From the IMG/VR virus record IMGVR_UViG_3300037606_000137, positions 1-64,000 of that record: a stretch of DNA of 64,000 nt; one strand, given 5' to 3'. Source of the DNA: a virus. Shown here one piece after another: positions 7,508-55,142 of this stretch. Made by a program: the position numbers and the translations under genes. Position 1 is the stretch's first letter. Each line of letters starts with the position of its first letter. The notes under the pieces are model-generated. The model was given only the letters and a program-made list of their open reading frames with translations. It did not search any database and was not told the DNA's origin.

Positions 7508-8230
7508 TTATGCACCAACTGTTTGTGCTGTTGTACCTGTTGCTAATTTATTCATTCCTTTTTTACCTTCTTTATATAATAAAATTATTTTATCACCTTT
7601 ATCAAATGTTTCAATAGTACCTAAATAATTATTTTTTGCAATTGTTTTTAAAGCATTTTCCATAGTATAAGGTATTGTTTTATTATCTCCATATTCTTGA
7701 AATACTAAATTTTTACCTTTAAATTTTGCTTCTATTTCTTTTAATCTTGAAATAGAATTTTTTTTTTTCTCTTCTATTTCTTCTTTAGATCCACCTCTAA
7801 AAAAATCACCTAAACCTTCTTCTAAAGGTTCCATATCATCATCCATTTCAGTTTCATCACTCATATCATCATCCATTTCAGTTTCATAACTCATATCATC
7901 GTCTATTTCAACATTATCTATTGTGTGTGAAACATTTTGAAATACATCAAATGCTATTTGTAATTGTTCATCTGTAGGCATTTCTAAAACATCTAACTCT
8001 TCATCATTTTCAGATTCTTCGTTTAATTCATTTAATTTTAATGTATATGCATCTTTAAATACATCAAATGTGAATTCTTCATTTTTATCATTATCATCAT
8101 CATCATTATCATCATCTTCATTATCAACAACTGCAGGCATGTCGTCGTCTTCAAAATTTTCTGTAATGTATTTAAATGCTCCCGGATTTTTTGCTTTTTC
8201 AGCTATAAACGTTTTTATATTAGTAATCAT
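7508..8230 (-). CDS. Acidic protein with N-terminal capsid-targeting-like tag
   Basis: 240 residues. Begins MITNIKTFIAEK, one of at least eight proteins in the window with this N-terminal pattern; T4 capsid-targeting sequences (MKTYQEFIAE) look alike and are cut after I/L-x-E by the prohead protease. Residues ~35-135 are extremely acidic (D/E runs, a repeated SDETEMDDDM-type unit); the C-terminal ~100 residues are basic and folded-looking. Prohead-core or internal-protein function is plausible but inferred. Likely co-transcribed with the next three minus-strand genes. Confidence 0.6.
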   Translation of the reverse strand: MITNIKTFIAEKAKNPGAFKYITENFEDDDMPAVVDNEDDDNDDDDNDKNEEFTFDVFKDAYTLKLNELNEESENDEELDVLEMPTDEQLQIAFDVFQNVSHTIDNVEIDDDMSYETEMDDDMSDETEMDDDMEPLEEGLGDFFRGGSKEEIEEKKKNSISRLKEIEAKFKGKNLVFQEYGDNKTIPYTMENALKTIAKNNYLGTIETFDKGDKIILLYKEGKKGMNKLATGTTAQTVGA

Positions 8231-8269
8231 AATTTTTTATTTTTTTTTTTTATATATTGTTTTTACATA

Positions 8270-8698
8270 TTACATTTCTATTTCACCTTGTGGCATATCA
8301 TCAGATGGTGTTAATGGTGTTTCTGTTGAAATTATTGGTTCATCAAAATTTTGATCGTTTTCAACATCATCAACTTCATCAGATGTAATTTCTGTAGATG
8401 CTTCACCTGGCGCCTTTGTTGGTTCACCTAATATAGTATTAACTGGTAAAGATTCAATATTAATAAAATTTGTTGTTACATATGAAACAAGCATTTCTGC
8501 TAATTCTATATCTGACCAATTTTCTCTTGGATCTGTACCTTGTTCTTTTTTAGCTTTACTTACAAAAGCATTAATTAATGATTTTGGAATATCTATACTT
8601 GTTCTTACTTTATATAAATCACCCATTTTGAAAACTGATTCGTGAATAGAATTTAATCTTTCACTTATTACTTGTTCTTTTGTTTTTAAAAATGCCAT
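8270..8698 (-). CDS. Hypothetical protein with acidic C-terminal tail
   Basis: 142 residues. N-terminal ~90 residues helical and charged (ERLNSIHESVF...), C-terminal ~50 residues Pro/Asp/Glu/Thr-rich and probably disordered. Part of the minus-strand group 7508-9734. No recognised motif. Confidence 0.6.
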   Translation of the reverse strand: MAFLKTKEQVISERLNSIHESVFKMGDLYKVRTSIDIPKSLINAFVSKAKKEQGTDPRENWSDIELAEMLVSYVTTNFINIESLPVNTILGEPTKAPGEASTEITSDEVDDVENDQNFDEPIISTETPLTPSDDMPQGEIEM

Positions 8699-8722
8699 TT
8701 TTAATAATATTTTTTATTTTTA

Positions 8723-8968
8723 TTATATATTGTTTTTATATAGTTGTTTTATTTTATCTTTTAACTCATCTGTAAAATTTTCATTATCTGTTTTAAATGT
8801 TTTTATTTTAGAATTAGTCATAGATTTTGCCATAAATTCACCTTGATGAATTTGTTTAATTAATTCATCGTCATAAAATAATTTAACTGTATCAAAATAT
8901 TCATTATCATTTGAAATAAGTTGTTCATTAATTAAATATGATTTAAATTTCTTTATAGTTGTTATCAT
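8723..8968 (-). CDS. Small protein with capsid-targeting-like N-terminus
   Basis: 81 residues starting MITTIKKFKSYLINEQ, with a predicted prohead-protease-like site after I-N-E near residue 15. The rest is a short helical charged domain ending FTDELKDKIKQLYKNN, similar in style to the ends of the repeat proteins at 26030 and 29200. Possibly an internal head protein; inferred only from the tag. Confidence 0.55.
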   Translation of the reverse strand: MITTIKKFKSYLINEQLISNDNEYFDTVKLFYDDELIKQIHQGEFMAKSMTNSKIKTFKTDNENFTDELKDKIKQLYKNNI

Positions 8969-8990
8969 AAATTATATATTTGTTTTTTTT

Positions 8991-9734
8991 TTATTTTGCA
9001 ACAGTATAACCTAAAACACCACCACCAATAAATAAAACACTACCACCAACAATTGTAAATAATCTTTTATTTTTATCATACCATCTACCAAACTTACTAG
9101 CACGTTGTTCTGGTGGTATAATAAAATTTTGCATATTATTTACAACTAAATCAGGATCATTTATTTTATAATTAACCATAATAGATTTATCTTTTTGTCT
9201 TTCAAACGTTGTTAAAATATTAAAATTATATTTATATGTAAAATTAAATTTAATATTTGTATCTAAAGTAATATTAGATTTCCATTGCAAATGTTTTGTT
9301 GTATCTTTTTCACTAAAAGTTAAAACTGATCCTAATTTAAAAGAAATTGTATCTGATTTAATAAATCCGGGATTATCGTCTTTATTTATTTCAGCTAGTA
9401 ATTCACCGTGTTTTTCTAATTCAGCTTTTGATGCAGCAATTAAACCTTTAATTTTTTTTAATTCATTATAGTATTCTTGTTGATCTTTAGATAATGTTTT
9501 AAAATATTCAGAATTTAATAAATCATCTAAATATATTTCTGGTGTTTTCTTTGAATATGTTGTAAAACCATTTTTTATAGAAACACTAATTGTGTCATTT
9601 AATGCATTAATAGTATTCTCATAATTGTCGAATTTTTTAGTCATATTATTAAGTTTATTATACCCAAAATAACCAATAAATATTAATAGAATTATTAACA
9701 ATAAATAAACTATATCTTTTTTCTCAAATTTCAT
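8991..9734 (-). CDS. Membrane protein with N- and C-terminal transmembrane helices
   Basis: 247 residues. Residues ~8-26 (YLLLIILLIFIGYFGY) and ~228-245 (FTIVGGSVLFIGGGVLGYTV) are hydrophobic helices; between them lies a coiled-coil-like region (~70-115) and a beta-rich stretch (~125-185). First gene of the minus-strand group ending at 7508. Spanin-like or envelope role is possible; not recognised. Confidence 0.6.
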   Translation of the reverse strand: MKFEKKDIVYLLLIILLIFIGYFGYNKLNNMTKKFDNYENTINALNDTISVSIKNGFTTYSKKTPEIYLDDLLNSEYFKTLSKDQQEYYNELKKIKGLIAASKAELEKHGELLAEINKDDNPGFIKSDTISFKLGSVLTFSEKDTTKHLQWKSNITLDTNIKFNFTYKYNFNILTTFERQKDKSIMVNYKINDPDLVVNNMQNFIIPPEQRASKFGRWYDKNKRLFTIVGGSVLFIGGGVLGYTVAK

Positions 9735-14053: not shown

Positions 14054-14569
14054 ATGGGTAAAAAAGCAGCAACAATAACTGTAGATAAACAATTTGTATT
14101 TAACAGTGATAACGTAGAAGAAATTATAGATAAACAATCGCAAGGATATGCATTACCACGATATATGAATCCATGGTTTAAAAATCAAATTGGCGTAAGA
14201 AAACCAGCATGTGTTTATGGTTGGTCTAAATTTGAATTAGATGAATTTATGAAATGTGCTGTAGATATTCATTATTTTGCAAATAACTATTGCCACATTA
14301 AAACAGAAGACGGACAAATTCGTCAAATGAAATTAAGAGATTATCAATATGATGTATTAAACTCATATACAAAAAACAGATTCACAATCAATATGTCGTC
14401 AAGACAAACAGGTAAATGTTTACACATGATAACCAAAGTATTATGTAAGATAAATGACAAAATAATTGAAATACCTATGTTTAAATTGTTATTTAAATAT
14501 AAGAAAAATAAAACTTTTTATGATTATATTAAATATCCAATTTATTGGATATTATGGAAATTAAATTAA
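14054..14569 (+). CDS. terL: Terminase large subunit, N-terminal extein plus split-intein N half
   Basis: 171 residues. Residues 1-121 are the terminase N-terminus and end in the Walker A element SSRQTGK. At C122 (codon 14417) an intein begins: CLHMITKVLCKINDKII is intein block A, followed by an aromatic/basic helix (TFYDYIKYPIYWILW) and a stop at residue 171. The rest of the ATPase resumes in the next gene after an asparagine-ending intein block. Protein trans-splicing would join G-K to T-I-T-A-A and rebuild the P-loop GKT. DNA packaging motor of the virion. Confidence 0.9.
   Translation: MGKKAATITVDKQFVFNSDNVEEIIDKQSQGYALPRYMNPWFKNQIGVRKPACVYGWSKFELDEFMKCAVDIHYFANNYCHIKTEDGQIRQMKLRDYQYDVLNSYTKNRFTINMSSRQTGKCLHMITKVLCKINDKIIEIPMFKLLFKYKKNKTFYDYIKYPIYWILWKLN
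14417..14569 (+). mobile_element. Split intein N fragment (50 residues) in terminase
   Basis: Starts with the nucleophilic Cys directly after the Walker A lysine. Contains block A only; block B is on the partner fragment, so the break lies between A and B, the atypical architecture known from the AceL-TerL/VidaL type rather than the usual split near the endonuclease site. Confidence 0.85.
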
Positions 14570-14613
14570 ATTAAATAATAAAAAGATGTATAGATTTTAT
14601 ACGATCATAAAGT

Positions 14614-15057
14614 ATGAAAAAATTAATTAATAAAATTTTATTTAAATTAATAGAAAAAATAGAAAATCGACAATATAGAAATATTAATTTAGATCAAACA
14701 GATATATTAAAAAAGATAAATAATATATCATTTGTAGAAAATAAGAATATTTATGTTGATTCACCGGAAGGTTGGGTACAAGTTACAGAAATAAATGAAA
14801 CACAACCATTCAAAATACATTATATAAAAACTGAATCAAGTAAAGAATTATTTTGTGCGGATAATCATATATTATATGACAGTTTAGGACAAGAAATATT
14901 AGTTAAAGAATTAAATATAGGGCAAGATATAATCACATGTAATGGTACCGAAAAAATTATTGATATGTATGTATATAATAGTTCTAATGGTATGATAGAT
15001 TTATCTGTTGATAGTCCAGAAATGAATTATTATACAAATGGTATTTTATCACATAAT
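14614..15057 (+). mobile_element. Split intein C fragment (148 residues) in terminase
   Basis: Carries block B (FCADNH, the A-x-x-H position), block F (MIDLSVDSPEMNYY) and block G (GILSHN), with Thr as the +1 extein residue. It is longer than the N fragment. No endonuclease domain and no nuclease gene between the halves. Confidence 0.85.
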
Positions 15058-16863
15058 ACAATAACAGCAGCAATATCATTATTACATTATTGTATTTTTA
15101 ATACAAATAAGGGTGTAATGATAGTTGCGAATAAAGGTGAAACAGTAATTGAAATTTTAGATAAAATTAAGAACATTTATAAATTATTACCATTTTTTAT
15201 GAAACCAGGTATTATTAACTGGAATAGTAAATCGATAGTATTTGATAATGGTTGTAGAATTAAATCACAAGCACGTTCAAAAGAACCGGCAATTGGATTT
15301 ACTATTGATTATTTATATTTAGATGAATTTGCACATATACCAAGAAACATAATCAATCATTACTACAAAGCAGCAATTCCGACAGTTTCATCTATTAAGG
15401 GGTCTAAAATTGTAATAACATCAACACCAAACGGGGCTAATTTATTTAAAGAATTAGTTATGGGTGCAATGCTTCCAGAAGGACATCCTGATAAAAACAT
15501 GTATAAACTTATTAAAATATTTTGGCATCAAGTACCGGATGGTAAATTTGAAGATGGTGCGGTTGGAACACGATTAGATGCAAAAATTTATCCAAGTGAT
15601 ACAGAAATGCGTCAGTATGATTTAAATGTTAATGATTTATTTGAAAATTTAGTTAAATTAAAATTTAAAGTTGTAAAAGAAATTGAATCTAGTGATACGG
15701 GAGATCGTACAATTATTAGAGTGTTACATAAAGATGGTGTTTCAGATATAGAAACAATTAGAAATTTAAAAATAAATAAAATTGCTATATCAAAAATAAG
15801 TAATATTTCTAATTGGAAAGAGCAAGAAACAAAATTAATTGGTGGAGAAGAAGCATTTAATCAGGAATATAATATACAATTCATTGCAGGATCAAAAAGA
15901 GTATTAAGTGCAAGTAAAGCTAAAATATTAGAAGATAGAGCTGTAAATTATTTATTTAAAGATATAGAAATTTTAGAAAAACGTTTACCTTTTGAATATG
16001 GTGAATTACGTTGGTCACCGGATTATATTGAACATGAAAGAAATAAATATTATTGGGTTCCAGCTTTAGATATATCAGAAGGGTTGGGTCAAGATGATAC
16101 TGTAATCAACATATTTAGGCTTATGGTGCGTTCTAATGAATGGTTACAAGAAAATAAGGTACGTAATATATACGACGCTTTTTATTTAAAACAAACAGGT
16201 ATTTATAATTATAATAGAATAGAGCCTGATAGAGAATTAGCTGAATTATTTTATTTATTATTTTTTGAATATTTTAATCCTGAAAGAGTTAAAGCTGTTG
16301 TTGAATATAATGGACCAGGTTCAACATTTTTAGCTTCTATGCCAAGTGTATTTGGTGGTAATAATAAATATGGTAATTATATATTTACACGATACAAACA
16401 TAACATAGAAGATAAAAAGAAAAAAGTTGGTTTAAAAATAACACGTAATAAAAAATTATTAGTAAAAAAATATATTGATAATGTTGAAAGTGATGCAATA
16501 TATGTTGATGAAACAATAACATTAGATCAAATGGATAATTTTATTAAAGTACCTACACGTTCTGGTGATTTTACATATAAAGCAGATTCAGGTCATGATG
16601 ATATTGTTATGACAGAAGTGGGACTTGCTACATTTTTTGATACACAAGATTACAAAAATATGTGTTTATCATATTATAATGAATTACCAACAGATATACA
16701 AAAATTAATTGATGGTGCTTTAAACATTGATTATAATCCTGATGTTATAAGTTATAAAGGAGCAAGCAGAGCTTTAGCTAATTCTAAAAGAAGAAGTAAT
16801 GAAAGAAAAAATATAAATATTTTAAGAAATAATAATATTTTTAATAATTCTTTTAATAAATAA
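14614..16863 (+). CDS. terL: Split-intein C half plus terminase large subunit ATPase/nuclease
   Basis: 749 residues. Residues 1-148 are the intein C fragment: a basic N-terminal helix (KKLINKILFKLIEKIENR), block B-like FCADNHILYDS, and blocks F/G ending TNGILSHN (N148). The extein starts with T149 (codon 15058) and carries Walker B YLYLDEFAHI (D237, E238), the STPNG coupling motif, and a RNase H-fold nuclease with ALDISEG and GHDDIVM acidic residues. Needs trans-splicing with the 14054 product to be a functional motor. Own start 44 nt after the first gene. Confidence 0.92.
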   Translation: MKKLINKILFKLIEKIENRQYRNINLDQTDILKKINNISFVENKNIYVDSPEGWVQVTEINETQPFKIHYIKTESSKELFCADNHILYDSLGQEILVKELNIGQDIITCNGTEKIIDMYVYNSSNGMIDLSVDSPEMNYYTNGILSHNTITAAISLLHYCIFNTNKGVMIVANKGETVIEILDKIKNIYKLLPFFMKPGIINWNSKSIVFDNGCRIKSQARSKEPAIGFTIDYLYLDEFAHIPRNIINHYYKAAIPTVSSIKGSKIVITSTPNGANLFKELVMGAMLPEGHPDKNMYKLIKIFWHQVPDGKFEDGAVGTRLDAKIYPSDTEMRQYDLNVNDLFENLVKLKFKVVKEIESSDTGDRTIIRVLHKDGVSDIETIRNLKINKIAISKISNISNWKEQETKLIGGEEAFNQEYNIQFIAGSKRVLSASKAKILEDRAVNYLFKDIEILEKRLPFEYGELRWSPDYIEHERNKYYWVPALDISEGLGQDDTVINIFRLMVRSNEWLQENKVRNIYDAFYLKQTGIYNYNRIEPDRELAELFYLLFFEYFNPERVKAVVEYNGPGSTFLASMPSVFGGNNKYGNYIFTRYKHNIEDKKKKVGLKITRNKKLLVKKYIDNVESDAIYVDETITLDQMDNFIKVPTRSGDFTYKADSGHDDIVMTEVGLATFFDTQDYKNMCLSYYNELPTDIQKLIDGALNIDYNPDVISYKGASRALANSKRRSNERKNINILRNNNIFNNSFNK

Positions 16864-31733: not shown

Positions 31734-31775
31734 AAAAAAAAAAACTGATAATTAATTATCAGTTTTTTTTTTTTT
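31734..31775. terminator. Terminator between tRNA-fMet and the membrane gene
   Basis: Palindromic AAAACTGATAATT / AATTATCAGTTTT with long T-runs on both strands; ends the tRNA/ncRNA transcript on the minus strand. Confidence 0.85.
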
Positions 31776-31816
31776 AAGTGCACCTATATATCAAGTACAT
31801 AAAGGCACTATTTTTG

Positions 31817-31889
31817 TAGCGGATGTTTGACTCGAACAAACGATCTTTGGATTATGAGCCCAACGAGATACCAACTTCTCCAACCCACA
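31817..31889 (-). tRNA. Initiator tRNA-fMet(CAU)
   Basis: Minus strand GGAGAAGTTGGTATCTCGTTGGG and CTCATAA anticodon loop follow bacterial initiator tRNA closely. Position 1-72 is an unpaired T-T, the initiator hallmark, and the anticodon stem has the G29-G30-G31 run (one G-U instead of three G-C). T-loop TTCGAGT. Confidence 0.85.
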
Positions 31890-32021: not shown

Positions 32022-32765
32022 AGTTTAAAGCCCTTGCACCACTTCACGGTGAGAATAAATCACAAGGGTACATCGTTTTAGCACTGTTATCCGATTAAAT
32101 ACATGATCGTTTTCACGTCAGTTACACGATTACCGTTCAGCAATCTTCATGTATTTTGCCTGTAATTCATTGTCTGGAATCACACAGTAGTTATGTACAA
32201 TATTCTAATCTTTCACACAACAAGTTTGCAGCTCTTGTATTACTCAACTGTAAAACATTTACATCTTGGGATATAAACACTTTACCATTTTTGATGTCAA
32301 TTCAAAGTTTTAATTTGAATGATAGGCACTTCTATTGCACATAGTCAATTTTTAATTCAAACCGAAGTTCAAATTTTTCCAAGCCAAAAGAAGACATAAT
32401 ATCTTTTTTTTTCTGTAGATCTAAGGATTTTTGCTTCCCTAGGATAAAATTACAAATCCCTAAATTATTAAAATAACTACAACAAAATTAGCGATTTTGT
32501 CTCTACATTTTAATCACTGGATATATTTAATGGTCGCTAAACCCCTTTGTCTATCCACACTTTTCTGTATAACTCCTCACCCGAAAAAAGGTTACTGTTT
32601 CATCTCACGACGATCCGCATTATAACGTGTTTTTGTATATCAACTATTTAAAAATAATTGTTGTAATTTAGCCTTCTAACTACAATTTTAATTCCGTACG
32701 ACATCGGAAATATTTTAAAAAATCAAAGAACGTTTTCTTTATGTTTTCACATTTATAATAGTTAT
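32022..32765 (-). ncRNA. Candidate giant structured ncRNA (ROOL/GOLLD-like class by size and context)
   Basis: About 740 nt with no coding frame and many local helices on the minus strand: TTCCG/CGGAA (near 32706), TTGTA-TTAG/CTAA-TACAA (near 32680), CAAC/GTTG (near 32650), ACAAAA/TTTTGT whose loop TCGCTAA also pairs with an upstream TTAGCGA (pseudoknot, 32479-32545), ATTCAAA/TTTGAAT, TGTAAA/TTTACA, CAAG/CTTG, a three-way junction closed by AAATACATGA/TCATGTATTT (32098-32157), and a 3' CCCTTG/CAAGGG plus CACC/GGTG hairpin (32031-32068). Lies inside a phage tRNA array, as giant ROOL and GOLLD RNAs do. Class assignment and exact ends are inferred. Confidence 0.6.
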
Positions 32766-32798
32766 ATATTATTAATGTAAAAAAGTTTAATTTAATTT

Positions 32799-32910
32799 AA
32801 AAATAATTTTCAATTCTAAAATAATATAAGAGTTAAACTTATATTCCACAGTACGCAGCCTGTGTTCCTAACCAATTAGAAGAATTATCTTAGAATTGAA
32901 AATTATTTTT
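32799..32910 (-). repeat. 21-bp inverted repeat flanking a tRNA
   Basis: Perfect arms 32799-32819 and 32890-32910 (AAAAATAATTTTCAATTCTAA and complement). They extend the acceptor stem of the enclosed tRNA into a helix of about 27-28 bp. Confidence 0.95.
32818..32890 (-). tRNA. tRNA with 8-nt anticodon loop (GCG, Arg?)
   Basis: Acceptor AGATAAT/ATTATTT, D-arm TTCT-AATTGGTT-AGGA, T-arm ATAAG-TTTAACT-CTTAT. The anticodon arm is CACAG-GCTGCGTA-CTGTG, an 8-nt loop; with U33 placed normally the anticodon is GCG (Arg), position 37 being T. It is enclosed in a long inverted repeat. Confidence 0.7.
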
Positions 32911-32913
32911 TAG

Positions 32914-32997
32914 TAGAAAAGAATGGAATCGAACCATTGTCTTGTCCAAGGATTCTCGAGATCGGATGGACTGCTCTAACCACTGAGCTACATTTCT
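32914..32997 (-). tRNA. tRNA with enlarged anticodon arm
   Basis: Acceptor AGAAATG/CTTTTCT (one T-T mismatch), canonical D-arm GCTCAGTGGTTAGAGC and T-arm AATGG-TTCGATT-CCATT. Between them the anticodon stem GTCCA/TGGAC closes 18 nt instead of 7; inside, GAT/ATC closes a CTCGAGA loop that would present CGA. Anticodon assignment uncertain. Confidence 0.7.
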
Positions 32998-33206: not shown

Positions 33207-34076
33207 TTATTCTTTCTTATTCATTTTTCTACCCTTAATCCACCCAACATTTATAAATGATTGTAATTCTTTTATTGTAATTTTTTTATTTATATCGTCT
33301 TTAGTAATCCAACAAGTTCCAAATGATGCATTCTTAATACCTGCATTTTTACTTTTTTTCATTTTTTGTTTAGTTTCTTCTGAATGTTTTTTACCTGTCC
33401 AATTATGAACCAATTCACCTGATAAATATCTAGGATCATTAATAGAAACATTAAATGTATTACCATCTTTATCTTTAACTGTTATTGTATTTTTTAATAC
33501 GTGTATTAATACACCTGATAAATATCTAGGATCATTAATAGAAACACTAAATGTATTTCCTTTAGAATCTTTAACTGGTATGAAATTTTTTGCAATTCCA
33601 TTTAATTCACCTGATAAATATTTAGGATCATCACAGAATACACTAAATGTTTTACCATCTTTATCTTTAACTGTTGTCATTCCTTTTGTGTTATGAACTA
33701 ATTCACCTGATAAATATCTTGGATCGTCACAAAAAACACTAAATGTTTTACCATATTTATTTTTAACTGTAACCATTCCTAGTTTACCAGCATAACCACC
33801 AAAATTAATATTCATACAATATTTATCTTCGAGTATTTCTCTCGTTAATAAATCAATTTCAGCTTGAATTAAATCTTCTCTATTGTCAAATTGTTCTATA
33901 ATTTCTCGTTTGAAATTATCTTTACCATATCTATGTATGGAATTTCGTAAATATTTTCCTGATCCTAAATATGAATCATTTAAATTATTAGTTGAATGTA
34001 TACCATAATAATACTTTCCATTTATCAAATTTGTAGTTTTATACAAATAATGATATTTTTTATCTATGTTTCTCAT
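33207..34076 (-). CDS. GIY-YIG homing endonuclease (Seg-like) with four internal repeats
   Basis: 289 residues. N-terminal GIY-YIG nuclease: HYLYKTTNLINGKYYYGIHS, then SYLGSGKYL and R-H-Y-G. Four tandem ~29-residue units of the type VKDKDGxTFSVxxDDPRYLSGEL (~100-220), then a NUMOD3-like GKKHSEETKQKMKKSK and a basic C-terminus. Freestanding, inserted within the tRNA array between tRNA-like genes. Confidence 0.85.
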   Translation of the reverse strand: MRNIDKKYHYLYKTTNLINGKYYYGIHSTNNLNDSYLGSGKYLRNSIHRYGKDNFKREIIEQFDNREDLIQAEIDLLTREILEDKYCMNINFGGYAGKLGMVTVKNKYGKTFSVFCDDPRYLSGELVHNTKGMTTVKDKDGKTFSVFCDDPKYLSGELNGIAKNFIPVKDSKGNTFSVSINDPRYLSGVLIHVLKNTITVKDKDGNTFNVSINDPRYLSGELVHNWTGKKHSEETKQKMKKSKNAGIKNASFGTCWITKDDINKKITIKELQSFINVGWIKGRKMNKKE

Positions 34077-34186: not shown

Positions 34187-34372
34187 TACAGATCAGATAT
34201 TAGGACCTGCAACTATTATCCAGTTTGTTTTTGGTCTGGTATAACCAACTCTAACAGTCTATTTTTACATAGACAACTTTTGCAAAAGTTCACTAACATG
34301 TTGCAACATGTTAATTAACACTCGAAGTTTCTTTTAGATAGACTTATGGTCTATGAAACCAGTAATGTTTGT
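34187..34372 (-). other. Hairpin-rich, gene-free spacer
   Basis: Perfect palindromes AACTTTTGCAAAAGTT and AACATGTTGCAACATGTT, plus ATAGAC/GTCTAT hairpins. No coding frame. May belong to a second small structured RNA or be processing signals. Confidence 0.35.
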
Positions 34373-34440
34373 AAAACCTAGAGATTCGAACTCTTAACTT
34401 AGTTTCAAGTTTCATTCCTGTAAGGAAACTACTAATATCA
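34373..34440 (-). tRNA. Degenerate tRNA-like sequence (UAC-like loop)
   Basis: Minus strand has a good T-arm (AAGAG-TTCGAAT-CTCT) and a hairpin GTTTCC-TTACA-GGAA resembling a Val(UAC) anticodon arm, but the 3' acceptor GGTTTTAC has no 5' partner. Pseudogene likely. Confidence 0.35.
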
Positions 34441-34517
34441 TCTTGTGCCCAATACACTATATTTTATCTCTGTCTTCGAAAACAGAATACGTTAAGATTA
34501 ATTAATTCTTAACTTTG

Positions 34518-34650
34518 TGGTTTTAATTGGAATCGAACCAATATAATAAACTACATATTAAATCACTTTAGTTTATAACTAGTATTATTCACTTAGTAAT
34601 ATTTAATCTTCGTTTAGCCAATATCGTTATTATAAAATAACTATAAAACC
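34518..34650 (-). tRNA. 133-nt tRNA-like gene with a large internal insertion
   Basis: Acceptor GGTTTTA/TAAAACC is perfect and the T-arm ATTGG-TTCGATT-CCAAT canonical; a D-arm-like GTTA/TAAC follows the acceptor. The middle is about 55 nt longer than normal and folds into further hairpins (ATATT/AATAT, TATTA/TAATA, TAAACTA/TAGTTTA). Could be an insertion, an intron or a tRNA-derived RNA. Anticodon not assignable. Confidence 0.5.
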
Positions 34651-34673
34651 GTAACTTTTAATTTTTAAACAAC

Positions 34674-34733
34674 CTCTTTTGATTGTTAAACAAATATAAG
34701 AATAATATTTTAATAATAAAAATAAATCTTAAT
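34674..34733. repeat. 60-bp direct repeat, copy 1 (carries a minus-strand promoter)
   Basis: Identical to 34832-34891. Contains CAAATATA, i.e. TATATTTG on the minus strand, upstream of the 34518-34650 tRNA-like gene. Confidence 0.95.
34691..34698 (-). promoter_or_regulatory. -7 box TATATTTG (minus strand)
   Basis: 41 nt upstream of the 5' end of the 133-nt tRNA-like gene. Confidence 0.5.
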
Positions 34734-34756
34734 TTTTTTTGTACTATTTTATTTGT

Positions 34757-34817
34757 TGCGAGGAAAGGAATCGAACCTCCAAAAATCGCTACTCTAACCC
34801 AATTGAGCTACCTCGCT
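34757..34817 (-). tRNA. tRNA-like gene without an anticodon arm
   Basis: Acceptor GCGAGG/CCTCGC, D-arm GCTCAATTGGGTTAGAGT and T-arm GGAGG-TTCGATT-CCTTT are intact, but only about 10 nt (GCGATTTTT region) separate D- and T-arms, so no anticodon stem-loop can form. It has its own promoter copy. Roughly 61 nt. Confidence 0.55.
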
Positions 34818-34831
34818 ATAATATTTTCAAT

Positions 34832-34891
34832 CTCTTTTGATTGTTAAACAAATATAAGAATAATATTTTAATAATAAAAATAAATCTTAAT
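34832..34891. repeat. 60-bp direct repeat, copy 2 (carries a minus-strand promoter)
   Basis: Identical to 34674-34733, 158 bp apart; together they bracket the anticodon-less tRNA-like gene. Confidence 0.95.
34849..34856 (-). promoter_or_regulatory. -7 box TATATTTG (minus strand)
   Basis: 32 nt upstream of the anticodon-less tRNA-like gene. Confidence 0.5.
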
Positions 34892-34898
34892 ATTTTTT

Positions 34899-35113
34899 TT
34901 AACAATCACCATTACAATAACCTCTTGATTCACAATCAGGACAATAAATTTCACAAATAAAAAGTACACCTGATTGTATTTTACGACCAGCAGACATACT
35001 AGATCTATCATTCATAAATGCAGTTCTTAAATATGTTGCATCTTTTGCAATTCGTTTCATTTTACGTTTTAAAGAACGTTGTTGTTTTTAATAATTTTAT
35101 TTTCTCTAGTCAT
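34899..35113 (-). pseudogene. Frameshifted small basic/Cys-rich protein
   Basis: From the ATG at 35113 the frame reads MTRENKIIKNNNVL and stops; one base extra in the A5 run would continue as QQRSLKRKMKRIAKDATYLR...CEIYCPDCESRGYCNGDC to the stop at 34899 (about 71 residues). As it stands only the 53-residue frame from the ATG at 35060 is open. The C-terminal CEIYCPDCES...CNGDC is zinc-finger-like. A real single-base loss or a homopolymer sequencing error. Confidence 0.5.
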
Positions 35114-35153
35114 GTATTATAAATATAAAATTTGTTTACTAAAAATGCCGCGG

Positions 35154-53690: not shown

Positions 53691-55142
53691 ATGAAACATT
53701 TTCAAAGCATGTGGAATATCATGCTCGCAACAGATAGCTATAAAGCTACACATCACGGTATGTTACCAAAAGGATTAACATATATGGAATCTTATGGTGA
53801 ATCAAGAGGTGGAGACTATCCATTTACGTTATTTTTTGGTATGCAATATTATTTAAAATCGTATTTAGTTGGTCAACAAGTCACAGAACAAAAAATTCAA
53901 GATGCTGTTAAATTTTATAATGCACATTTTGGTGTAGATAATATGTTTAATGAAGATGGTTGGAGATATATTCTTGATAAATACGATGGAAATTTACCTT
54001 TAAAAATAGAATCAGTAAAAGAAGGATCTATTGTACCAACAAAAAATATGTTATATAAAATTTCATCTACAGATGAAAAATGTGCATGGTTAGTAAATTG
54101 GGTAGAAACATTATTAATGAAATTATGGTACCCAATTACAGTTGCTACAAATTCATTAGCTGGTATGGAAATTGTCAACATACATGCAGAAAAATCAGGA
54201 ACTAAGTCAGGTAATGAATTTAAGTTAGTTGATTTTGGTTATAGAGGTGTTGCAAGTGAAGAACAAGCATGGCTTGGTGGTGCAGCAAATTTATTATCAT
54301 TTAAAGCTACAGATACCGTTGCTGGTATTAGAATGTTGATGGAATATTATGATGCACCAATGTGCGGATATTCAATTCCTGCAACAGAACATATGGTTAT
54401 GACAATTAGAGGTCGTGATTTTGAAAGAGAAACATATAAACAAATTTTATCTGATCCTAAATACCGTAGTGGTAAATTAGCATTAGTTTCTGATACATAT
54501 GATATTTATGCAGTATGTCGAATGTTATCAGAAGATACTGAATTAAAAGAATTAATTTTAAGTAGAAATGGACAATTGATTATACGTCCTGATTCAGGTG
54601 ATCCACAAGATGTTTTACTTAAATGTTTAGAAATTTTAGGTGATGGTTTTGGTTATACCGTAAATGAAAAAGGATATAAAGTATTAAATCCAAAAATTGG
54701 TTTATTACAAGGTGATGGTATTACAATATATACTATGCATGAAATAATGGAATATTTAGAAAGTGCAACAAATATGTGGTCATTTGATAATATAGCATTT
54801 GGTTCAGGTGGTGGATTATTGCAACACTTTAATAGAGATTCATTAAAATTTGCAATTAAAGCATGTTATGCAGTAACTGATGGTGTTGCTATTGATGTAT
54901 ATAAGGATCCAATTACAGGATCAGGTAAAACATCTAAGAAAGGACAATTATATACTGTATGGAATGATAAAACCGGATATGAAACAATTACAAAAGCAGA
55001 ATTTGAAACTAATAATAGTACAAATATGTTACAAGCTGTATTTTTAAATGGTGTTTTATATAACGAACAAACATATCAAGATATTATTGATACAAAAAAC
55101 AATGAAATAAAAAAATTAGAGAATTTAGAAGATGACAAATAA
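53691..55142 (+). CDS. nadV: Nicotinamide phosphoribosyltransferase (NAMPT/NadV)
   Basis: 483 residues (human NAMPT 491). Conserved blocks in order: TDSYKATHHGMLP, FGYRGVASEEQA, FKATDTVAG, IPATEHMVM (catalytic H234), LIIRPDSGDPQDV, LQGDGITIYTMHE and IAFGSGGGLLQ. Converts nicotinamide and PRPP to NMN, which the adjacent NMNAT makes into NAD+. Overlaps the following gene by 11 nt. Confidence 0.96.
   Translation: MKHFQSMWNIMLATDSYKATHHGMLPKGLTYMESYGESRGGDYPFTLFFGMQYYLKSYLVGQQVTEQKIQDAVKFYNAHFGVDNMFNEDGWRYILDKYDGNLPLKIESVKEGSIVPTKNMLYKISSTDEKCAWLVNWVETLLMKLWYPITVATNSLAGMEIVNIHAEKSGTKSGNEFKLVDFGYRGVASEEQAWLGGAANLLSFKATDTVAGIRMLMEYYDAPMCGYSIPATEHMVMTIRGRDFERETYKQILSDPKYRSGKLALVSDTYDIYAVCRMLSEDTELKELILSRNGQLIIRPDSGDPQDVLLKCLEILGDGFGYTVNEKGYKVLNPKIGLLQGDGITIYTMHEIMEYLESATNMWSFDNIAFGSGGGLLQHFNRDSLKFAIKACYAVTDGVAIDVYKDPITGSGKTSKKGQLYTVWNDKTGYETITKAEFETNNSTNMLQAVFLNGVLYNEQTYQDIIDTKNNEIKKLENLEDDK

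Follow-up and report, generated by a model that had tools for sequence, protein, structure and literature searches.

What is encoded by the long ORF-poor interval that separates two tRNA genes in the tRNA array of a phage, and does it belong with the giant RNAs ROOL and GOLLD? We addressed this for the minus strand of the window, by which we mean the whole 64,000-nt stretch of DNA analysed, from the 110-kb virus record IMGVR_UViG_3300037606_000137 (G000).

The interval encodes a non-coding structured RNA

The minus strand at 32775-32022 encodes a non-coding structured RNA, flanked by tRNA-Ser (32997-32913) and tRNA-Met, both also on the minus strand. The first-pass annotation had proposed ~740 nt of non-coding minus-strand sequence, and this was borne out. 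The ORF list contains no ORF of at least 60 aa on the minus strand of 32022-32765, and the sole ORF of that length is a 62-aa plus-strand frame with a TTG start. This frame has no Pfam match and no counterpart of at least 50 aa at the same position of the homologue described below. A coding explanation, which would have refuted the proposal, was looked for, and no conserved ORF was found on either strand.

Folding of the minus strand gave -163.9 kcal/mol compared with -146.6 ± 3.9 for shuffled sequences (z -4.45), with 0 of 20 shuffles as low. The plus strand of the same stretch was unremarkable (z +0.13). The G+C content of the RNA region is ~30%, against 23% for the window. Were this AU-rich intergenic sequence that folds by chance, or a region with hidden coding content, the slightly raised G+C content alone would favour folding energy. 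The lack of a conserved ORF counts against hidden coding, and a chance fold is excluded by the column-shuffle, shared-MFE-pair and slid-structure tests reported in the following section. As the compensatory changes already refute this reading, we give it essentially no credence.

The fold is conserved in a second phage

A homologue of the RNA was found in IMGVR_UViG_3300015360_000063 (G001), a 50-kb phage contig identified in IMG/VR through the terminase of the window record. The homologue (L017:4119-3485) shares 65% nucleotide identity over 660 nt, adjoins tRNAs, is without a conserved reading frame, and its minus strand folds with a z of -3.79. The base composition of the two loci is far apart, with 23% G+C for the window and 39% for L017. 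Similarity stops near 32101, and the last ~80 nt at the 3' end are unconserved.

Structure was tested on a sequence-only alignment (MAFFT); a hand-made structure-weighted realignment was worse and was left out. The RNAalifold consensus comprises 118-122 pairs, 38 of them changed on both sides (compensatory). Its energy of -82.9 compares with -33.1 ± 5.5 in column-shuffled alignments (z -9), and the number of compensatory pairs with 15.3 ± 4.2, the maximum in 100 shuffled alignments being 29. When each sequence was folded alone, 57 MFE pairs fell at common alignment columns (2.5 ± 3.4 in shuffles), of which 17 were compensatory (0.10 ± 0.37 in shuffles). Sliding the 3' partners by 1-3 columns reduced pairing from 100% to 35-43%. 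The fold is kept beyond sequence similarity in the two phages, as a covarying structure of ~675 nt. All covariation derives from one pairwise comparison (n = 2 sequences, window and G001). Absence of covariation in homologues, a further outcome that would have refuted the proposal, was not encountered, at least for this one homologue. The predicted many nested helices are likewise confirmed, both by the folding energy and by pairs and compensatory changes common to the homologue. Two of the properties that mark the giant tRNA-linked phage ncRNAs, a non-coding RNA of more than 500 nt with elaborate conserved structure and a site within a phage tRNA array, are present; abundant expression during infection is a further criterion for this functional kind.

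Architecture of the RNA

The conserved body contains 21 helices (Table 1), and its loops are conserved to the same degree as its stems. The closing helix of the multi-branch domain is nested inside the 6-bp helix that closes the large domain. The first-pass annotation had singled out three elements, each of which held in part. The multi-branch domain is supported, but the closing helix with comparative support measures 9 bp rather than 10 bp. Both strands of the pseudoknot, TTAGCGA and the hairpin loop TCGCTAA, are present and identical in both phages, but they lie ~40 nt apart and not 50-60 nt. As the strands are invariant, the pseudoknot is conserved but not tested by covariation; in the hairpin that presents the loop, 4 of 8 pairs are changed between the phages with pairing kept. 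The terminal 3' hairpin exists in the window but is not conserved in the G001 homologue, and it is without support from conservation because similarity ends upstream of it.

Table 1 Features of the RNA gene and its transcription unit in the window.
Feature	Position	Strand	Detail and basis
Conserved body of giant ncRNA	32101..32775	minus	5' end near 32775; nucleotide identity with L017:4119-3485, alignment, covariation
3' part of RNA	32022..32100	minus	Hairpin ~32068-32031; not conserved in homologue; sequence and fold, beyond alignment end
boxA-like element GTTCTTTGA near RNA 5' end	32723..32731	minus	AAAACGTTCTTTGA in window; AAAACGTTCTTTATA in homologue
Helix 1, invariant hairpin UCCG/CGGA	32693..32708	minus	Comparison with G001
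Helix 2, 8-bp hairpin	32661..32685	minus	2 compensatory pairs; comparison with G001
GUC-GUGA-GAU hairpin, GNRA tetraloop	32602..32611	minus	Conserved; alignment
Large domain	32184..32598	minus	6-bp closing helix 32598-32593/32189-32184, 3 compensatory pairs; comparison
Pseudoknot strand a, UUAGCGA	32534..32540	minus	Within 14-nt invariant block GGGUUUAGCGACCA; alignment
Pseudoknot strand b, UCGCUAA	32488..32494	minus	Loop of 8-bp hairpin 32501-32481 (4 compensatory pairs); comparison
Outer 8-bp stem below pseudoknot hairpin	32467..32514	minus	3 compensatory pairs; comparison
Hairpin GGGAU/AUCCU	32441..32460	minus	Stem invariant; alignment
Multi-branch domain	32192..32343	minus	9-bp closing helix 32343-32333/32202-32192, 6 compensatory pairs; comparison
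Hairpins inside multi-branch domain	32320-32300; 32283-32252	minus	4 compensatory pairs; 13 bp, respectively; comparison
8-bp hairpin	32162..32183	minus	Comparison
tRNA-Met(CAT), initiator-like, downstream of RNA	31816..31889	minus	ARAGORN; Rfam 52.1 bits
Intrinsic-terminator-like palindrome after tRNA	31734..31773	minus	20-bp perfect arms, T tract; sequence

The RNA does not match ROOL, GOLLD or intron models

ROOL and GOLLD are phage-encoded RNAs of 600-800 nt, located near tRNA islands and containing pseudoknots and kissing loops (PMC12286853). The likeness to them in size and habitat that had been pointed out stands, the window RNA being large, structured, non-coding and encoded among phage tRNA genes. 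The suggested scan with their models was carried out: cmscan against Rfam (E<=10, permissive filters) returned no ROOL, GOLLD, intron, tmRNA or other credible family for either copy. Whole-record searches of 21 related records with RF03087 (ROOL) and RF02032 (GOLLD) found neither in G000 or G001. The RF02032 search did identify GOLLD in LR745206 (287 bits) and LR756502 (275 bits), scores which demonstrate that this model works in the same phage group. The ROOL model matched in no positive control, and ROOL is therefore excluded less firmly. The GOLLD of LR745206 sits between tRNA-Met and a downstream tRNA. With true GOLLD in both genomes, one copy beside tRNA-Met, the phage group is known to carry RNAs of this kind in this habitat. 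The two GOLLD loci lie at L071:8340-9281 (LR745206) and L072:~8140-9092 (LR756502), and both records are unannotated.

These neighbours, together with the similar size and habitat, leave room for a GOLLD or ROOL that has diverged past model recognition, and divergence among the 5' domains of GOLLD RNAs is on record (PMC12286853). Against this stand the lack of any Rfam match for either copy and the high RF02032 scores within the group. In addition, the 5' domain of GOLLD, which lies outside the Rfam model, was modelled (R3) from LR745206 and LR756502. With filters off, R3 gave no more than 3.9 bits anywhere in the region and at best 2.5 bits on the RNA. No BLAST similarity was detected between the window RNA and GOLLD, and models of the window RNA (R1 and R2) had no match in the GOLLD-bearing genomes. 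A likeness of TTAGCGACC/ATCGCTAAT to ATTAGTGACC/ATCACTAAT in the LR745206 GOLLD was taken as coincidence, because the latter form a stem that covaries in LR756502, with the strand order reversed. We consider a diverged member improbable. Without a model match to ROOL or GOLLD, the window RNA is filed under neither, and the earlier hedge between a divergent member and a new class tips towards the latter.

We also considered a mobile ribozyme, intact or decayed (a group I or II intron), that had inserted among the tRNA genes. There are homing endonuclease genes close by (33207-34076, GIY-YIG/NUMOD3), and phages are reported to carry group II introns (PMC12350094). Nevertheless, neither copy matches a group I or II model at E<=10, both flanking tRNAs are intact, and in two phages the RNA keeps the same unit order and a conserved 5' end of its own. 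The intron reading is largely refuted, and we hold it to be very improbable.

A common unit order with a boxA-like element and tRNA-Met

Both phages have the same order of elements: boxA-like element, giant RNA, tRNA-Met(CAT) with initiator features, and intrinsic terminator. The annotated position beside tRNA-fMet in a phage tRNA cluster is thereby corroborated, with tRNA-Met(CAT) downstream of the RNA in both. The counterpart in G001 (L017:3233-3159) is divergent and scores 25.5 bits, under the Rfam threshold of 29; the terminator counterpart (L017:3155-3134) has 9 bp and a T tract. Bacterial initiator tRNAs are marked by a 1:72 mismatch and by GGG/CCC. By eye and without statistics, a U-U mismatch at 1:72 was seen in three tRNAs, those of the window and G001 and the GOLLD-adjacent one of LR745206, and GGG on the 5' side of the anticodon stem in those of the window and G001. 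The GGG/CCC stem is fully paired in G001 and includes one G-U pair in the window.

Both RNAs carry AAAACGTTCTTT close to their 5' ends, followed by GA in the window and by ATA in G001. The element of the homologue reads GTTCTTTATA and deviates from GTTCTTTGA past the T run. GTTCTTTGA resembles bacterial boxA, the E. coli form of which is TGCTCTTTAACA; that Bacteroidota use a boxA of the GTTCTTTGA type is an assumption. All 17 copies of GTTCTTTGA in 167 kb of related huge-phage tRNA-array loci lie on the tRNA strand, against 0 on the other. In 1200 permutations of the same composition, 17 was never reached and 9 never exceeded. An extended form with ATTGAAA has 5 copies in more than 3 Mb of related huge-phage genomes, one of them 5' of the LR745206 GOLLD. 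In bacteria, boxA keeps Rho from terminating long untranslated transcripts, and a role in rRNA folding has been proposed for it (PMC4807359, PMC10250234). That the element acts in antitermination here is an inference.

In the tRNA arrays of huge phages (L071, L081-L085, L091-L093), GTTCTTTGA was also seen to be a marker of the tRNA strand, frequently with ATATTGAAA after it. The huge phage LR756500 has a tmRNA gene (L091:17010-17422, minus strand, 95.5 bits) with a boxA-like element 16 nt upstream.

The minus strand of the array in the window holds further features. Between tRNA-Ser and the giant RNA, 32795-32915 folds into a cloverleaf (-37.2 kcal/mol, z -7.5) that received no tRNA call; its D-, anticodon- and T-arm-like hairpins sit on an acceptor-like stem that is extended, with 27-nt arms of 96% complementarity. 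The gene at 33207-34076 contains 96-nt tandem repeats, and its product, with NUMOD3 and weak GIY-YIG matches, is likely a homing endonuclease encoded within the array. A further stretch between tRNAs that is poor in ORFs (34187-35151) contains a tRNA (34817-34756) with near-identical 74-nt direct repeats on both flanks, together with degenerate tRNA-like pieces, a short ORF and, at 35077, a boxA-like element.

The common order raises the question of whether the RNA is an independent RNA machine at all, or instead acts in cis, as leader or processing scaffold for the initiator tRNA transcript, or regulates how much tRNA-Met is made. Such a role would suit the tRNA-Met and terminator that come after the RNA in both phages, and the presence of a boxA-like element as in rRNA leaders. 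However, ~675 nt and 21 helices far exceed the needs of a tRNA leader, other tRNAs in the same arrays are without one, and the conservation of loops as much as stems also argues against it. A purely cis-acting role is in our view unlikely, but it cannot be dismissed.

The RNA is patchily distributed among related phages

The closest named terminases are those of the uncultured huge phages LR756501 (735 kb, 41%), LR745206 (635 kb, 46%), LR756502 (642 kb, 42%) and LR756504 (636 kb, 38%). Genomes above 634 kb have been described as Mahaphages, with predicted replication in Bacteroidetes (PMC7162821). Assignment to a Bacteroidota phage, as first annotated, is supported via this kinship only (terminase 41-46% identical to 634-735 kb phages). 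In the window the large terminase is itself split in two genes (14054-16863, plus strand) at the Walker A motif (…SRQTGK / SHN-TITAA…). As judged by eye, both halves carry a fused half-intein-like part, which suggests that the protein is made whole by a naturally split intein. A nicotinamide phosphoribosyltransferase gene (53691-55142, plus strand; phrog_448, E 4e-139) represents a phage-borne NAD-metabolism gene.

Among the relatives searched, the RNA is present in G000 and G001 only. Models R1 and R2 found no copy in the 169 and 314 kb examined of G002 and G004, whose terminases are 70% identical, nor did R1 (or R2) in five huge phages. Given its absence from the examined stretches of G002 and G004, phages of this group can do without the RNA. 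GTDB genomes gave 0 matches to the RNA pattern, and a terminase search there found no relative.

Several candidates were rejected. A pattern match in L023 lies inside a tape-measure-like gene and was attributed to chance; a 31-nt match in LR756500 (L043) is coding and AT-rich, with no further similarity. An R1 match of 18.5 bits in LR756501 (L082:7204-7338) falls within a radical-SAM-like coding gene, and the gap L085:5777-6490 (W01) contains tRNA-like genes and no giant RNA. Apart from G001, no other pattern match was backed by R1 or R2.

A probable new family and a possible mechanism

The window RNA is probably the product of a giant structured ncRNA gene of a huge phage and represents a new family, one that would work like ROOL and GOLLD without belonging to either. 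The best reading is of a family with two members so far, of tRNA-linked phage RNAs.

We infer, without transcript data, that the RNA and tRNA-Met would be transcribed together as a stable-RNA unit of ~1 kb. The boxA-like element may recruit antitermination of the NusB/S10 type, which would let the long untranslated transcript evade Rho and fold during synthesis, as in rRNA operons, with the tRNA presumably cut out of the transcript. By analogy only, the RNA might then fold, via its pseudoknot or a kissing loop, into a compact particle, which could serve the translation programme of the infected cell. That such a particle would be a homo-oligomer like ROOL and GOLLD, whose nanocages are a homo-octamer and a homo-14-mer, respectively, seems probable on the same analogy, but is the least supported part. 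An ornate RNA particle remains inferred, as no transcript or oligomer has been shown. Only ROOL and GOLLD are listed as phage giant RNAs with solved nanocage structures, and whether cage assembly is common among large RNAs has been left open (PMC12286853). It is possible, if tentative, that the window RNA represents a third class of phage RNA that self-assembles into a large hollow particle, shares a single boxA-driven transcript with an initiator tRNA, and in some huge phages fills the position that belongs to GOLLD in their relatives.

If one niche in this huge-phage group is filled by unrelated RNAs, the function would seem to be convergent or replaceable, and the window RNA offers a concrete third test case for large-RNA assembly. 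The boxA-like elements common to these loci hint at the way in which phages produce long untranslated RNAs. The recurrent association with initiator tRNA directs the search for a function to translation initiation.

Comparison with known systems

The boxA leaders of rRNA operons share with the window unit a boxA-like element close to the 5' end of a long transcript that is structured, not translated and tRNA-bearing; unlike them, the window unit is without rRNA and is phage-encoded, its dependence on NusB/S10 being inferred. ROOL (RF03087) is likewise a pseudoknotted RNA of ~660 nt, found in phages and prophages near tRNA islands. It differs in that neither copy has an Rfam match at E<=10, with no other comparison of folds made. 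Loop L8 of ROOL is paired to J6/8, a strand upstream of it (PMC12286853), and UUAGCGA/UCGCUAA in the window is an arrangement of the same type. GOLLD (RF02032) differs in its helices, in the absence of a sequence or model match, and in the position of tRNA-Met, which is downstream of the window RNA but upstream of GOLLD. Both RNAs are nonetheless phage-encoded, longer than 600 nt and placed in a tRNA array, and in both a hairpin loop pairs with an upstream joining strand. The GOLLD of LR745206 further shares the tRNA-Met neighbour and a boxA-like element at its 5' end.
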